Shown: piece by piece, positions 17,425 through 60,314 of the stretch
Numbering within the stretch: position 1 is the stretch's first letter
Layout of the letters: each line of letters starts with the position of its first letter
Made by a program: the position numbers and the translations under genes
Assembly (NCBI GenBank): GCA_902780935.1
Contig: CACZHP010000007.1
Location: forward strand, 1 to 64,000
DNA length: 64,000 bases
Source: an uncultured Bacteroidia bacterium
GTDB taxonomy: Bacteria; Bacteroidota; Bacteroidia; Bacteroidales; UBA932
Direction: 5' to 3'
Notes under the pieces: model-generated
What the model saw: only the letters and a program-made list of their open reading frames with translations
Told to the model about the DNA's origin: nothing
Databases searched by the model: none

Positions 17425-17451
17425 ATCTCTTAACCTTTAAAACTTCTTCCC

Positions 17452-17586
17452 AGAAGGAAGACCCTTCCCCTCCGAACCGTCTCGCTCCGCTCGACCCCAC
17501 CGCTCGCTTCGCTACGCTCAGCTCCGGTCCCCCCTCTTAACGTGCCGAGGGTGGCAGTGGTTCTTGAGGGGAAGGGTCTTCCTTCT
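17452..17586. repeat. Large inverted-repeat element upstream of htpG
   Basis: A perfect 21-bp arm at 17452-17472 (AGAAGGAAGACCCTTCCCCT and one more base) is repeated inverted at 17566-17586. Imperfect pairing continues outward through CTTCCC and GTTGGGAG. The 93-bp centre is made of GAGCG/CGCTC-type words (CGCTCCGCTCGACC, TTCGCTACGCTCAG), the same kind of dispersed repeat found inside mnmA and gcvPB. No protein gene is visible in 17425-17641. It could be a miniature mobile repeat or a very long RNA hairpin in the htpG leader. Confidence 0.7.
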
Positions 17587-17641
17587 GTTGGGAGAACGAG
17601 GTCAAATAACGTTCCAGAGGGCTGTGACTGACAATTTGTCA

Positions 17642-30970: not shown

Positions 30971-33637
30971 CTAATCTGTCACATTACGTTCTTCAGCGTC
31001 AATCTCGTGGCCGAAGGCATAAGCTTTGTCCGCCCCTCTTGTGTATGCGAACTTGCCGGAGAATCCGGCCAACATTATCGACCCATCGACAAAATCAGAG
31101 ACCGACATGCGGAATCCATCGTACACATCCGTCAAATCCAGCGACTTGTACAGATTGAAATTAACCGTACTGTTTACATTTGAGCCATTATATTTGCCGC
31201 TGACGGTGAAAGAGGTAATCGGAGACCTGAATTCTGCCCGCATCGTGGAAGCGGGGAATGAGAACCTTCTCTTGTCAGAGTCCCACTTTCCGGATTCGTT
31301 ATAAACCGGCGTGTCCTCCAACGCTGACAGAGCCGCCGAGGAGAACTCGAGACTGAGTCTGGTATGCCCCGAATCCCATACAAAAGATCCCGTCACGTCA
31401 TTAGGCATTGAGAAATATGGCGGATTCATTACTTCCCGGTCTGTGTCGGATAGTTTCAGACCATAATCCGGCAAAACTTTCCCCGCACCAGGATATGCCT
31501 TTCCACTAATACGCTCGAACAACAGGTCGTAAACCCCCACTTTTGATGGAGAGGCTCCGTCGCCGAATCCCGCGGCGAACCATGTCTCTTTCCCGCCTTT
31601 AACCCTGGACCGTGAGACCATCGCGCGGTGCAAGGTGTACTCGTAATTCCTCTCTCCACAGATATGGTTGATGTCAGAGAGCCAGTCATTCTTCTGATCA
31701 TCTTTCAACGAGGCCAGGTCACCCGCAAGACCGCTCACCCTGGACAAGAGTATCTCAACACCCTTGTTCCGGTAGTACCTGAAAACAGATGAATTGACGG
31801 AAGGCCAGAATCCCATGTCGCTCTGCGTATATGATCCGCCACTGATCTTTTCCCTGCATGAGATGAAATGGACACCCTCAGTAACGCCCTCGACAATCCT
31901 GTAGACCAGATAATCCGTACAGGTAGAATAGTATCGCAGGGTAGCTCCTTTCGTGACGACTATAAGCCCCACCTGATACGGTACCTTGCACGTCGATGCG
32001 ATCTTGGACTGGTCTGTCACGGTTGTCGACCCGTAGCTGAAGGAGATGGGCTTCACCCCGGAACCAATATTGTCAGGATCGTCCTTGGCGCTCGGAAGCC
32101 CTGCCTGCCACTCCGGGAGCTCCTCCCTGGATAGATACACATACCCTTGGGAATCAGACGTTTTGGTGTATGTCCTTGACCCGGACATATCGGTGAATGT
32201 AACCTCACAGTTCGGGATGATCACCGGGCCGGGGCCTGTCACGATGAAAGCCGCTCCGCCGGAGATGGGATTGACATACTCGTATTCCGTCTTTCCACCC
32301 GTTATCTTGCTCAAGGCTATGACAGAGGCGACATTGTACATCTTGGAGTCCACCCGGTCAAGATAGGCGGTGTCAGAAAGCGCCAGGCCACCGGCGACTC
32401 CAACGGCGTTCTCTCCATCGACACCATCCTTTCCCTTGAGATACTTCCAGAAATCAGCCTGATTCACAGCGGTGGCGGGCCATGTGGGATACTCCTCCAC
32501 ATCGTAAACCCCGTTGCCTGGATTGGCCAGTCCTGATTCGGACAGGACATCCCGCTTCCAGAGCTCATAGGCGGATAGGCCGTCCACACCATCGGCGCCT
32601 GTCAGGTAATAATAGAAATCGGCTTCAGAATCCTTGTTCTTATCCCACTTCTTGCCAGGATTCTTGGGATCATCGACATTCCCATCGGAGATATATTCTT
32701 TCCAAAGTTCATAAGCGGACAATCCGTCAGCGCCATCCTTTCCTCCGAGATACAGGAAAAAATCCTCGAGATCAACGGCATCCTTGGGCCAGAGGGGGTA
32801 ATCATCCTGGTCATAAACCCCATTTCCTGGGTTCTCAAGTCCCTCTTTCGAAAGCACTTCCTTCTTCCAGAGCTCATAGGCGGACATCCCGTCCTCACCC
32901 GAAGGCCCGGTCGCGGGCACACCTGTGTCAGTGTCTCCTACATGCCAGTTTCCGTCATCCCCCACATAAGGTGTATTACCGTTGTCACCATCATCTCCCT
33001 TGTCACCTTTATCTCCTTTCTCGCCTTTAAGATACAAGAAGAAATAGCACATCGAAGTGTCTGACACCGACCATTCCGGATCCCCGTCGCCTTTGATGAA
33101 CTCAAGCCAGACCCGATAAGCGGACAATCCGTCCGCACCATCAGCCCCCGCCGGGCCGGTGGCTGGCACTCCCGTGTCACTGTCTCCTATGAACCAGTCA
33201 CCATTGTCCCCAATGAACGGGATAAGCCCGTCATCACCCTTTGGGCCTGTCAGGTACTTGAAGAAATCCTTCTGGGTGTCAGCCTCCGGATCCCATTTTC
33301 CTCCTCCCTGGGGAGCGTCGGCATCTCCCGTAGAGATATACTCTTTCCAAACCTCGTATGCGGTTTTCCCATCATCCCCTTTGTCGCCTTTCTCGCCTTT
33401 AAGATATATAAAGTAGTCCGATAAGCCAGTCCTGGACTGATCCCAGTCCTGGATTGTCCCGTCGGCTACAGCTTTCACCCAGACCTCATACGACGTGAGG
33501 CCGTCCCGGCCAGTTATTCCCTGGATTCCCTGCTCACCCTGCGGACCTTTCGGCAAAGTGACTTCAAGTCTGGTACAGGACAACAGAGCGGCTGCTCCAA
33601 CGCAGGCAGCGGCCATGATTTTGATAAGGTTTCTCAT
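30971..33637 (-). CDS. Collagen-like modular surface lipoprotein
   Basis: The lipoprotein signal ends AALLSCTR (Cys near 20). Residues 30-420 alternate collagen-type G-x-y runs (GEKGDKGDDG, GPQGEQGIQG, GPAGADGADG) with six copies of a module of 40-60 residues. These modules start with a recurring SAYELWKEYIS-type phrase and end in a YYYLTGADG-type phrase. Copies differ, for example YEVWVKAVADG, YRVWLEFIKG and YELWKRDVLSE. The C-terminal half (about 440-888) is non-repetitive, beta-rich and Ser/Thr-rich and may be the binding part. It lies 12 nt after the OmpA-like gene, so the operon builds an outer-membrane/surface assembly. The partner is unknown. Confidence 0.8.
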   Translation of the reverse strand: MRNLIKIMAAACVGAAALLSCTRLEVTLPKGPQGEQGIQGITGRDGLTSYEVWVKAVADGTIQDWDQSRTGLSDYFIYLKGEKGDKGDDGKTAYEVWKEYISTGDADAPQGGGKWDPEADTQKDFFKYLTGPKGDDGLIPFIGDNGDWFIGDSDTGVPATGPAGADGADGLSAYRVWLEFIKGDGDPEWSVSDTSMCYFFLYLKGEKGDKGDKGDDGDNGNTPYVGDDGNWHVGDTDTGVPATGPSGEDGMSAYELWKKEVLSKEGLENPGNGVYDQDDYPLWPKDAVDLEDFFLYLGGKDGADGLSAYELWKEYISDGNVDDPKNPGKKWDKNKDSEADFYYYLTGADGVDGLSAYELWKRDVLSESGLANPGNGVYDVEEYPTWPATAVNQADFWKYLKGKDGVDGENAVGVAGGLALSDTAYLDRVDSKMYNVASVIALSKITGGKTEYEYVNPISGGAAFIVTGPGPVIIPNCEVTFTDMSGSRTYTKTSDSQGYVYLSREELPEWQAGLPSAKDDPDNIGSGVKPISFSYGSTTVTDQSKIASTCKVPYQVGLIVVTKGATLRYYSTCTDYLVYRIVEGVTEGVHFISCREKISGGSYTQSDMGFWPSVNSSVFRYYRNKGVEILLSRVSGLAGDLASLKDDQKNDWLSDINHICGERNYEYTLHRAMVSRSRVKGGKETWFAAGFGDGASPSKVGVYDLLFERISGKAYPGAGKVLPDYGLKLSDTDREVMNPPYFSMPNDVTGSFVWDSGHTRLSLEFSSAALSALEDTPVYNESGKWDSDKRRFSFPASTMRAEFRSPITSFTVSGKYNGSNVNSTVNFNLYKSLDLTDVYDGFRMSVSDFVDGSIMLAGFSGKFAYTRGADKAYAFGHEIDAEERNVTD

Positions 33638-55514: not shown

Positions 55515-55577
55515 GACTGGCCTATAGTTCTGGTGTTCTCAAAGATAACAATAATTGTCCAAAATCCAGCGATTAAG

Positions 55578-55585
55578 TATCTTTG
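55578..55585 (+). promoter_or_regulatory. -7 box of mnmA
   Basis: TATCTTTG matches the consensus. It lies 8 nt before ATG 55594, so the leader is very short and the earlier start at 55555 is excluded. Confidence 0.55.
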
Positions 55586-55593
55586 CAGGGATT

Positions 55594-57186
55594 ATGAAAG
55601 TTTGCGTTGGTCTTTCAGGAGGAGTTGACTCCAGTGTGGCCGCCCTGCTGCTGAAGCGGGAGGGCTACGATGTGTTCGGGATGTTCATGCAGAACTGGCA
55701 TGACGCTGACGCCACACTCCATGGCGACTGCGAGTGGGAGGAAGACCGTTTCGTGGCCGAGTTGGTGGCCCGCAAGATCGGAATCCCCTTTTATTTCGTT
55801 GATCTGTCAAAGGAGTACCGCCAGCGGGTCGTGGACTACATGTTCAATGAATATTCCGCGGGTCGCACCCCGAATCCGGACGTGCTCTGCAACCGTGAGA
55901 TAAAGTTCGACGCATTTTTCGAGGCAGCCCGAAGACTGGGCGCCGACATGGTGGCGACAGGCCATTATTGCCGTAGGGCTCCGCTGCTGGACAGCGAGGG
56001 GAAACAAGTCATTATCAACGGGTTGCCCCAGTGGAGAATCCTTGAGGGAACGGACCCTAACAAAGACCAGAGCTATTTCCTTTGCCAGCTCACCCAAGAG
56101 CAGCTTGGTAACGCTCTCTTTCCTATCGGCCACCTCACGAAACCCGAAGTCAGGCAGATAGCCCATATCGCCGACCTACCGTCCGCCGACAAGAAGGACT
56201 CCCAGGGAATATGTTTCGTCGGGAAGGTTGATCTTCCGACTTTCCTTAAGCAGAAGCTGGAGCCGAAAGAGGGCGAAGTGGTCGAGGTTTTCGACGCTTT
56301 TTTCGAGGAAAATCAGCACTACAAGTTCGTCCATGACACTTTGGCCTCATTGCTTGCCGAACCTGGCGAGCCGCTGATGACCGCAGTCTTCGCTTCCGAG
56401 GACTCCGGCGGCGCCTCTTTCAATAACCGCCCGGTCGCTCCGGCGACAAAAGATGTCCCCGCATCCTGTGCTCCGGCGGCAAAAGGCGCCTGGGCTCCCT
56501 ACGCTTCGCGCCCTAGCCGGGTAAACGTCCGCCCAGGCGCATTGCCGCCGGAGCAACAAGAGATTTCCGAACCGGTCCCTGAGCGGAGTCGAAGGGCCAT
56601 TGCCGCCATCTCCCCAAGGAACGTGTTTGATGCGGGGAAAATGGCAGCCCTGAGCGACGAAGATTGGATAAAGCTGTCGGAACCCGTTGATTATTCGGCG
56701 ATAAAGTTCGAGACGGAAGTCTATCGCAGCGGCAAAAAACACATCAAGAAGACCCGCTACAAGGACAACCCCTGGGGCAAGGTTGTTGGCCAGCATGACG
56801 GAGCGCAGTTCTACACCATCGGCCAGCGCAAAGGCCTCAACATCGGCGGCCACAAGGATTCAATATTCGTGATAGCGACTGATGTCAACTCCAACACCAT
56901 CTACGTCGGGGAAGGTCACAGTCATAAAGGCCTCTCCCGCAGCTGCATCAGAATCGCTTCCGAAGACATCCACTGGATCCGCCAAGACCTTGAAATGGAA
57001 GATGGTGACGTGCGACGCTACCGCGTAAGGGTCCGCTACCGCCAGCCTCTTCAGGACGCCTGGCTTGTCAAGCGCCCTTCAGGAATATTCATACTCTTCG
57101 ATACGCCCCAGCGAGGAATATCCGCAGGCCAGTTTGCCGCCTGGTACTCCGACGACGACGAAATGCTCGGCTCCGGAGTTTATTGA
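55594..57186 (+). CDS. mnmA: tRNA-specific 2-thiouridylase MnmA with a large central insertion
   Basis: MnmA thiolates U34 of tRNA-Glu, -Gln and -Lys using ATP and a persulfide carrier. P-loop GLSGGVDSSVAALL at 7-20. Catalytic Cys99 in NPDVLCNREIKF and Cys207 in SQGICFVGKV. The C-terminal barrel starts at KVVGQHDGAQFYTIGQRKG near 397. Length is 530 against about 360 normally. Between the usual EGEVV (about 230) and KVVG (397) lie some 165 extra residues. These include an 85-bp palindromic repeat translated as APAAKGAWAPYASRPSR and NVRPGALPPE, and a second dispersed repeat (PVPERSRRAI). The catalytic residues are intact, so the enzyme may still work. Confidence 0.92.
   Translation: MKVCVGLSGGVDSSVAALLLKREGYDVFGMFMQNWHDADATLHGDCEWEEDRFVAELVARKIGIPFYFVDLSKEYRQRVVDYMFNEYSAGRTPNPDVLCNREIKFDAFFEAARRLGADMVATGHYCRRAPLLDSEGKQVIINGLPQWRILEGTDPNKDQSYFLCQLTQEQLGNALFPIGHLTKPEVRQIAHIADLPSADKKDSQGICFVGKVDLPTFLKQKLEPKEGEVVEVFDAFFEENQHYKFVHDTLASLLAEPGEPLMTAVFASEDSGGASFNNRPVAPATKDVPASCAPAAKGAWAPYASRPSRVNVRPGALPPEQQEISEPVPERSRRAIAAISPRNVFDAGKMAALSDEDWIKLSEPVDYSAIKFETEVYRSGKKHIKKTRYKDNPWGKVVGQHDGAQFYTIGQRKGLNIGGHKDSIFVIATDVNSNTIYVGEGHSHKGLSRSCIRIASEDIHWIRQDLEMEDGDVRRYRVRVRYRQPLQDAWLVKRPSGIFILFDTPQRGISAGQFAAWYSDDDEMLGSGVY
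56470..56554 (+). repeat. 85-bp palindromic-ended coding repeat, copy 1 (inside mnmA)
   Basis: The ends are inverted copies: GCTCCGGCGGCA at the left and TGCCGCCGGAGC at the right, then GCGCCTGGGC paired with GCCCAGGCGC. By eye 81 of 85 positions agree with copy 2 at 59198-59282 on the opposite strand. In mnmA it is read as APAAKGAWAPYASRP and on to NVRPGALPPE. Confidence 0.85.
56573..56600. repeat. Dispersed GAGCGGAGTCGAAGGG-type repeat inside mnmA
   Basis: CCTGAGCGGAGTCGAAGGGC, translated in frame as PERSRRA. The core is shared with the repeat in gcvPB (9111-9139) and resembles the centre of the inverted repeat at 17452-17586. Confidence 0.6.
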
Positions 57187-58901: not shown

Positions 58902-60314
58902 TCAAATTCGGTGGCATACGATGAGGAAATTGTCGGCCTGGAACGGAGTCTCGATCCTGACCCCGAAGATATGGGCGTCATCTCCAGAACGGACTCCCAG
59001 CCTGGCACGTAATTCCGCGCTTGTAAGGGGAATATTCCTCGCGGACACCTCAGACTTCGGGTAACGCTTCCCCACGTCACGCATCCCCGCCTTGTTCATC
59101 CGGACGATCTCCTTTACCTCAAAGATCTTCCCGAAATTGAACAGATCCTTCGCTTCGCTCAGGATGACAGAGGGTGCGCCAGGAATAACTGAGGGAGGCT
59201 CCGGCGGCAATGCGCCTGGGCGGACATTATCCCGGATAGGGCGCGAAGCGTAGGGAGCCCAGGCGCCTTTTGCCGCCGGAGCAGGGGAAAAGAGGTTCGT
59301 GGAGCGGGCGAGCTTAACAAGGCCGAAACGGGAGCAAAGGGCGTTGAAAACCCCAGCCTTGGCAAGAGACTTGCCAGGCTCGAAAACATACTTTAAATCA
59401 ACGGCTTCCGGAAGAACCGCCTTTGAGGAACGGATCTCCTCGGAAGAAAAAGACAAAGATCCTCCATCCTCCCGGCAAGTTACGCTATACTCCCCTTTCC
59501 AGTCCCGATCCATCCACACCAGCAACTCCTTACACTCTCCCCCGCTCGCCACGACATGGACCTCCCGGACCCAGTTGCCATTCCACCCTTCAGAACAATC
59601 CTCCATAAGCGACGTCTCATAAGACCGGTTCAATCTCTCAACCACCATGGTCACGTCAGCCATCGGAGACAACTTCAAGAGAATATTCCGGGAATATCGG
59701 AAGAGTTCAGGGATAAGGTCGAGCACATTAGGCGAGCAGTCTTCCAGAAGGAAGACCTTTCCCCCGGAATTGTCCCTGCGGGCGGGATCCAGGAATATGA
59801 GATCGGGTGCGAAACCAGCCAGAAGACTCCCTAAAGATCCCTTGCCAACCTCACTGTTTTCAACCCGGATATTCCTTACCTCGAGCTCCGCAAAATTATA
59901 CTTCGCCGCAGAAGCTAAAGAGCTATCCCTCTCATTGTAAAGGACTTCCGAAGCGACCGACGAGAAGGCCCAGCTGTCAATCCCCAGTCCTCCGGTGAGA
60001 TCGGCGATCCTGCCAGGGACATTTCCAAGAATCCGGCCGGCAAGCGCCGTCTTGTAACGGGCGGTTACTGATGAGCTGCACTGCTCGGCGCATAGGGCCG
60101 AGGGATATACCAAAGAAGTGAGAGAATACCACTCAGGAACCTTGCCCCGAAGCTTCCGACGGGCCTCTATTGTACTGATGGCCAATTCCTTCCCATCAAA
60201 AGACGATAAGACGGGATTCGCTGGAGGCAACGGCCATTCAACACGGGAAAGCAGAAGCCGGGATATCTCGGCTTCCGCATTCCCGACAATGAATCGCTCA
60301 AAACTACTCGGCAC
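58902..60314 (-). CDS. THUMP-like class I SAM-dependent methyltransferase
   Basis: The SAM-binding motif I is IADLTGGLGIDSWAFSSVAS near 103-121, followed by YNERDSSLASAAKYNF. The catalytic-type FLDPARRDNSGGKVFLLEDC is near 174. The family (THUMP-like domain at the C-terminus) probably methylates RNA. Between NLF (341) and FGKIFEVKEI (394) lie about 50 extra residues made of the 85-bp repeat (APAAKGAWAPYASRPIRDN) and a second repeat (SVILSEAKDL). 470 residues against roughly 400 expected. It overlaps the peptidase gene by 11 bp. Confidence 0.85.
   Translation of the reverse strand: MPSSFERFIVGNAEAEISRLLLSRVEWPLPPANPVLSSFDGKELAISTIEARRKLRGKVPEWYSLTSLVYPSALCAEQCSSSVTARYKTALAGRILGNVPGRIADLTGGLGIDSWAFSSVASEVLYNERDSSLASAAKYNFAELEVRNIRVENSEVGKGSLGSLLAGFAPDLIFLDPARRDNSGGKVFLLEDCSPNVLDLIPELFRYSRNILLKLSPMADVTMVVERLNRSYETSLMEDCSEGWNGNWVREVHVVASGGECKELLVWMDRDWKGEYSVTCREDGGSLSFSSEEIRSSKAVLPEAVDLKYVFEPGKSLAKAGVFNALCSRFGLVKLARSTNLFSPAPAAKGAWAPYASRPIRDNVRPGALPPEPPSVIPGAPSVILSEAKDLFNFGKIFEVKEIVRMNKAGMRDVGKRYPKSEVSARNIPLTSAELRARLGVRSGDDAHIFGVRIETPFQADNFLIVCHRI
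59142..59169. repeat. Dispersed TGAGCGAAGCGAAGGATCT-type repeat inside the methyltransferase gene
   Basis: The minus strand reads TGTCATCCTGAGCGAAGCGA and continues AGGATCTG, a repeat word I recognise from many Bacteroidetes genomes. It is translated in frame as VILSEAKDL, a peptide typical of such insertions. Confidence 0.65.
59198..59282 (-). repeat. 85-bp palindromic-ended coding repeat, copy 2 (inside the methyltransferase gene)
   Basis: Same element as 56470-56554 with four differences by eye, all in the central non-palindromic part. Translated on the minus strand as APAAKGAWAPYASRPIRDN and on to VRPGALPPE, the same frame as in mnmA. Confidence 0.85.

Follow-up and report, generated by a model that had tools for sequence, protein, structure and literature searches.

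An inverted repeat of about 85 bp that occurs twice inside unrelated protein-coding genes raises the question of what kind of element it is, whether it is translated with its hosts and what is passed on when it is copied. The window, a 64,000-nucleotide stretch from an uncultured Bacteroidia bacterium, holds one copy in mnmA and another, on the opposite strand, in a methyltransferase gene (Table 1). A first-pass annotation of this DNA had described two closely similar 85-bp copies with inverted-repeat ends, each translated within its host without breaking the frame, and its coordinates, sequence likeness and frame are confirmed. The copies share 81 of 85 bases (4 differences), with the likeness fading just beyond 85 bp (an inverted pair of 91 nt, 93%); the 85-mer has a folding energy of -56.5 kcal/mol compared with -36.6 (sd 3.2) for shuffled sequences (z -6.25); and both copies translate to APAAKGAWAPYASRP...NVRPGALPPE within long open reading frames (ORFs), that of mnmA running from 55555 to 57186 (+) with its ATG at 55594.

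Table 1. Positions in the window of the two element copies, their parts, their host genes and neighbouring short repeats.
Feature	Position	Strand	Remarks
Element copy 1	56470..56554	+	in mnmA, MnmA residues about 293-320
Copy 1 conserved core	56493..56533	+	about 41 nt; 26-nt centre 56502-56527; two predicted mini-hairpins
Copy 1 5' arm	56470..56492	+	partner 56534-56554; GGCGCCTGGGC arm subfamily
Copy 1 3' arm	56534..56554	+	
Host gene mnmA	55594..57186	+	PF03054, PF20259, PF20258; no internal stop
Element copy 2	59198..59282	-	in PG_1098-type methyltransferase gene
Copy 2 conserved core	59219..59259	-	26-nt centre 59225-59250
Copy 2 host gene	58902..60314	-	PF22013 ferredoxin-like before element, PF18096 THUMP-like after
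Short repeat distinct from the element, same MnmA loop	56579..56594	+	peptide VPERSRRA
Short repeat distinct from the element, past copy 2	59148..59162	-	peptide VILSEAKDL

Copy 1 is flanked on each side by Pfam matches to MnmA domains, and copy 2 lies between the matches to the PG_1098 ferredoxin-like and THUMP-like domains. In a structural model of MnmA the element residues fall inside a stretch of very low confidence (residues 269-339, pLDDT <50), the rest of the protein being modelled confidently (mean 80), and this copy probably occupies a flexible loop. An assembly artefact is unlikely, since the mnmA copy recurs in another assembly (L046) and the methyltransferase copy in a locus of a further genome (L178).

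The notion of a uniform 85-bp unit did not survive a wider search, as only about 41 central nucleotides repeat across the genome and the arms are mostly unshared. BLAST with the 85-mer found 13 places in the genome of origin, nine of which match over only 31-48 nt, and six of these nine cover one and the same stretch of 39-41 nt. The 26-nt centre, allowing up to 3 mismatches, occurs at 15 places in that genome (reversed control, 0). Inverted arms adjoin the core at these places, one of which is a half copy (L011), and the arm sequences are unrelated to one another except in the window pair, L003 and L004. The alignment of 84 copies from five genomes, taken from 108 counted there (15/15, 17/24, 36/43, 14/24 and 2/2; the other 24 were not fetched, lay near the end of a stretch or were duplicates), is near-invariant at most positions from -9 to +31, the exceptions being mainly -8, -4, +26 and +30, and shows only a weak consensus in the arms. 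Within a genome, cores are 90-95% identical and 5' arms 35-41%. Tandem partial copies of the form core-arm-core are present in L194 (folC-like) and L165, an arrangement that suggests local duplication or slippage.

The arms nevertheless pair, each with its own partner. The two arms of one copy are complementary at 18.2 of 22 bases compared with 12.2 for arms of different copies, and their pairing energy is -37.4 kcal/mol as opposed to -18.2 across copies, although three copies pair weakly; in the GGCGCC arm subfamily even the outer tips vary between copies yet pair. Covariation was measured on 52 of the 84 copies, after removal of copies whose arms resemble those of a retained copy by 75% or more and of three copies whose arms are unpaired (the second of L165, the first of L169, and L186), the latter omission raising the pairing figure. 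In this set 247 cells are compensated, where shuffles give 97.1 (sd 8.2), and the share of paired cells is 76% compared with 51.6%, neither value being reached in any of 500 shuffles; a control with slid partners gave, in its best version, 144 compensated cells and 52.5% paired. All 17 of 17 stem pairs have changes on both sides, a count that shuffles also attain (mean 16.0, with 17 in 76 of 500). Constraint on the element acts on the core and on the pairing of the stem, and not on the stem's sequence. For the core itself two mini-hairpins are predicted, so that the complete element would be T-shaped; this prediction comes from folding energy, as the core pairs hardly vary.

With up to 3 mismatches the 26-nt centre was found in 19 of 400 same-genus genomes, that of the window included (reversed control 0 in every row), at 43, 30, 28, 25, 24, 24, 15, 14, 10, 4, 3, 3, 2, 2, 2, 1, 1, 1 and 1 places. 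A family sample of 199 genomes, searched with up to 2 mismatches, yielded 2 carriers, each from this genus, and in an order-wide sample of 393 genomes, all but six from other families, the centre occurred in the genome of origin only. Relatives of the window's mnmA come mostly from metagenome-assembled genomes of rumen and gut Bacteroidales; given that two of 80 bear the name Candidatus Cryptobacteroides (71% and 61% identity), we infer that the genus is probably Cryptobacteroides. The exact 26-mer had 0 matches in viral contigs, and a phage origin was rejected on that basis.

Most copies lie in genes. Rather than falling mostly between genes, 75 of the 84 are inside ORFs of at least 120 aa, some of which may not be genes (L032, L034, L165), and 9 were not counted so, among them L035, which borders a stretch of N and occupies the same site as L013, a copy inside a gene. 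Random positions, drawn from the window only, fall in such ORFs at about the same share (532 of 600), which indicates that genes are not avoided. The single reading frame proposed in the first-pass annotation is true of the window pair and fails as a rule: in-gene copies use five of the six frames (22/22/15/12/4/0) in both orientations, so that a fixed frame can be rejected for the 84 copies, and even within mnmA the copies of L049 and L050 are in a different frame. The frames vary, yet only stop-free ones are used. The unused sixth frame is closed by TAA in the consensus, and in the frame closed by TAG all 4 of 4 copies carry a change that removes the stop, compared with 1 of the 71 other in-gene copies (Fisher p 4e-6). 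This restriction to open frames, together with the stop-removing changes, makes it very probable, on sequence grounds, that the element is translated together with its host, whose protein it lengthens by about 28 amino acids while leaving the reading frame open.

The hosts are diverse, and include MnmA, UppP, DsbD, CitX, MetH, GH106, NAD synthase, LpxB, a TilS-like PP-loop protein, IspF, WbqC, an aminotransferase and methionyl-tRNA synthetase (L201), with two copies inside one gene in the case of the DsbD gene and of the TilS-like PP-loop gene. Pfam still recognises 25 of the 30 host proteins scanned, all but L019, L028, L032, L034 and L165, a proportion that argues against the hosts being pseudogenes. 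At L177:309-2504 a single ORF holds citrate lyase ligase and CitG domains with the element between them; the long ORF of L229 is related to it and lacks the element.

Comparison between genomes points to turnover at these sites. Element-free orthologues of mnmA, uppP, the radical SAM gene, ispF, wbqC and metG have shorter loops, and outgroups of the radical SAM gene imply an 84-nt insert that includes both arms. In the mnmA loop, L046 has the same element and L047 half of it; L048, L051 and L052 have only other short repeats there, and L053 has none of these. Of 24 sites common to more than one of five genomes, 12 include at least one flipped pair, and arms at least 80% alike are found in 17 of 28 same-orientation pairs compared with 5 of 21 flipped pairs; in dsbD of G000 and G342 (L007/L161) the flanks are 90-92% identical and the elements are different and flipped. 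Re-insertion, rewriting and inversion of the core cannot be told apart at most shared sites. Direct repeats at the ends score 4.27 within a copy and 4.18 across copies, the ends not being sharply defined, and give no sign of a target-site duplication. No insertion differing within one species was seen, for which reason we do not claim mobility at the present day.

Other repeats share this ground. Short repeats in the mnmA loops of L048, L051, L052 and L058, together with the two of the window listed in Table 1, are found in the protein loops that the element also occupies; they have peptides VPERSRRA, SEAKDL and HPERSEG and a centre of GAGCGNAGYCGAAG or GAGCGNAGCGAAG, and look like small hairpins with differing arms. 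A peptide like GGSTASLRSAPPFASQSEAPVPP occurs at about 45 places in three genomes (query residues about 890-958 from L195), one of them at window positions 17476-17568, where it coincides with a perfect 22-nt inverted repeat (17451-17587), and apparently represents another coding repeat family. Short direct repeats at 32567-33413 may, as a guess, belong to a collagen-like or fibre protein.

Taken together, we consider it likely that the element is a mobile protein-coding palindrome, resembling the Rickettsia palindromic elements (RPE) and constrained in its core and its pairing rather than in the sequence of its stem. In this model a hairpin of about 80-85 nt, which would be too small to encode an enzyme of its own, carries a core of about 41 nt with two predicted mini-hairpins on a stem of about 20 bp. 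Recognition of the core and of the shape by the copying machinery is suggested by the constraint on core and pairing and its absence from the stem sequence, and copying may perhaps involve folded single-stranded DNA and an enzyme supplied in trans. In-gene copies that survive keep the host frame and use one of the element's open frames, as the frame usage above documents, and probably sit in flexible loops, to judge from the MnmA model only. Later, the core may be inverted between the arms, another version may fill the same loop, or the copy may decay to an in-frame remnant; the differences between species are observed, and their direction is what we infer from them. Recognition of this kind has a parallel in integron attC sites, which are recognised as folded single strands, by shape more than by stem sequence. 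Those sites serve cassette recombination and have conserved boxes in the stem, whereas the element described here is conserved at its apex.

A search of Y1 (RAYT-like) genes tied no transposase to the element and yielded no mobilising enzyme. Such genes are present in 9 of 9 genomes tested, including G215, which has no core match, and the core is absent from all 12 Y1 loci read (of 28 Y1 matches), several of which have other hairpins. Y1/RAYT is not supported as the mobiliser on either count. Perfect short hairpins holding GTAG or CTAC lie near the Y1/RAYT-like loci of L296, L287, L289 and L290, on both sides of the locus in the case of L296 (GTAG type), and are probably a separate REP-like system.

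The stems may differ because they belong to old lineages under structural selection, or because the arms are made anew. That stems are copied faithfully in old lineages, with selection for pairing at each move producing the covariation, is a serious contender that we place somewhat short of even. It is consistent with the weak consensus that the arms show at set distances from the core, with a recurrent shift of 1 nt, seen by eye, between the inner and outer parts of the stem, and with 15 vertical pairs that differ by 5.1% in the arms and 2.8% in the core, the flanks differing by 23.8% with indels included. These pairs were, however, picked for similar arms, which biases the rate towards slowness, and the conservation of cores alongside near-random arms within a genome would demand very strong constraint on the core. 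Only in one subfamily, which includes both window copies, and in a small cluster can arms be traced to another copy (nearest-copy similarity 27.0 compared with 26.0 under the null), so that no simple donor-copy history is visible; the grouping used in this test gave 33 groups and is coarse, other repeats in the flanks probably having merged sites.

The more radical possibility, which we hold to be rather improbable, is that the apex is the only transmitted sequence of a T-shaped hairpin and that the arms are newly made as a complementary pair at each move through fold-back synthesis from some template. On this view one half of the element would be rebuilt from the other, and shape would define a new class of mobile element. 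A related and doubtful proposal is that the core lands and the arms arise by inverted copying of the target flank, again by fold-back synthesis. Evidence of this kind comes from wbqC of G129 (L043), where native sequence of L285, an empty site, is matched by the right arm and the left arm, which is inserted, is its inverse complement over about 14-18 nt (p 0.037 in the formal arm test), and from ispF (L196), where about 9 nt of native codons have their mirror image in the opposite arm; both cases are suggestive, and the differing but paired outer tips of the GGCGCC subfamily would fit as well. The formal comparison of arms with empty-site sequence, which took other copies' arms as its null and could be applied to 43 of the 75 in-gene copies (69 with flanks, 51 with empty sites), gave p <=0.05 for 6 of 43 where about 2 are expected, no fewer than three of these (L001, L030, L179) having been compared with empty sites that include remnants or doubtful stretches (L047, L206, L029). 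L196 returned p 0.11 and L198 p 0.66, and outgroups of L157 show that both arms arrived with the insert. Target-derived arms as a general rule, suggested by eye, were rejected on this test.

A cis-acting functional RNA structure, with no mobile parasite involved, would account for the strong covariation and the conserved apex, but is very improbable given that the element occurs in either orientation, in many unrelated hosts and in amplified form in some species only. No Rfam family was found at the window copy or at six further loci; a known RNA family was discarded after Rfam returned sub-threshold matches only, plus an ordinary tRNA in L183. Skipping by the ribosome or removal by mRNA splicing, which by reasoning only would render hairpins in conserved genes tolerable and leave the host protein unchanged, is scarcely credible, as open frames and the stop-removing change in the TAG frame would then be unnecessary.

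Among known systems, the mobile, translated palindrome that we favour most closely recalls the palindromic elements of Rickettsia and Wolbachia. RPE are described as palindromic, occur in frame within genes and also between genes, have many conserved hosts, and fill one gene site in several species (PMC3767692, PMC2229807, PMC10969869). The likeness drawn in the first-pass annotation stands for a dispersed in-frame palindrome, in genes and between them and with many conserved hosts, but not for a single fixed frame and peptide. RPE are given as 105-146 bp (PMC2229807), compared with about 80-85 nt here, and each RPE family, according to PMC10969869, encodes one conserved peptide in one compatible frame, as opposed to the five frames and both orientations found here. 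The arms here are, moreover, copy-specific and covarying, and the likeness is one of architecture, not of compared sequence. REP/BIME sequences with RAYT (Y1) share short hairpins and high copy number, but are described (PMC3733652) as extragenic, 20-40 bp long and tagged with GTAG or CGTC, in contrast to the 75 of 84 copies in ORFs here, with the core not beside the Y1 genes read. Bacterial MITEs such as Correia and ERIC are likewise small and non-autonomous and, according to PMC2229807, can fuse in frame with ORFs; unlike them, the present element lacks constant terminal inverted repeats of a parent transposon, as the 5' arm identities above attest, a parent having been sought among Y1 genes. 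Target-site duplications were looked for and not detected, at ends that are not sharply defined. The design of a constant core on copy-specific stems is unusual, and the first-pass annotation's remark that no Bacteroidales equivalent had been described is uncontradicted by our literature search of open-licence PubMed Central papers, which found no such counterpart.

In the open-licence literature covered, palindromic elements common within genes have been described for Rickettsia and Wolbachia, both of which live obligately inside cells. For comparative work, a gut and rumen lineage with 19 carriers in a sample of 400 genomes and as many as 43 copies in one of them is much better suited, and offers the chance to follow selfish DNA as it lengthens the loops of conserved proteins, is lost and leaves remnants. 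The combination of a constant core with a copy-specific stem presents, in addition, a puzzle of recognition and copying.
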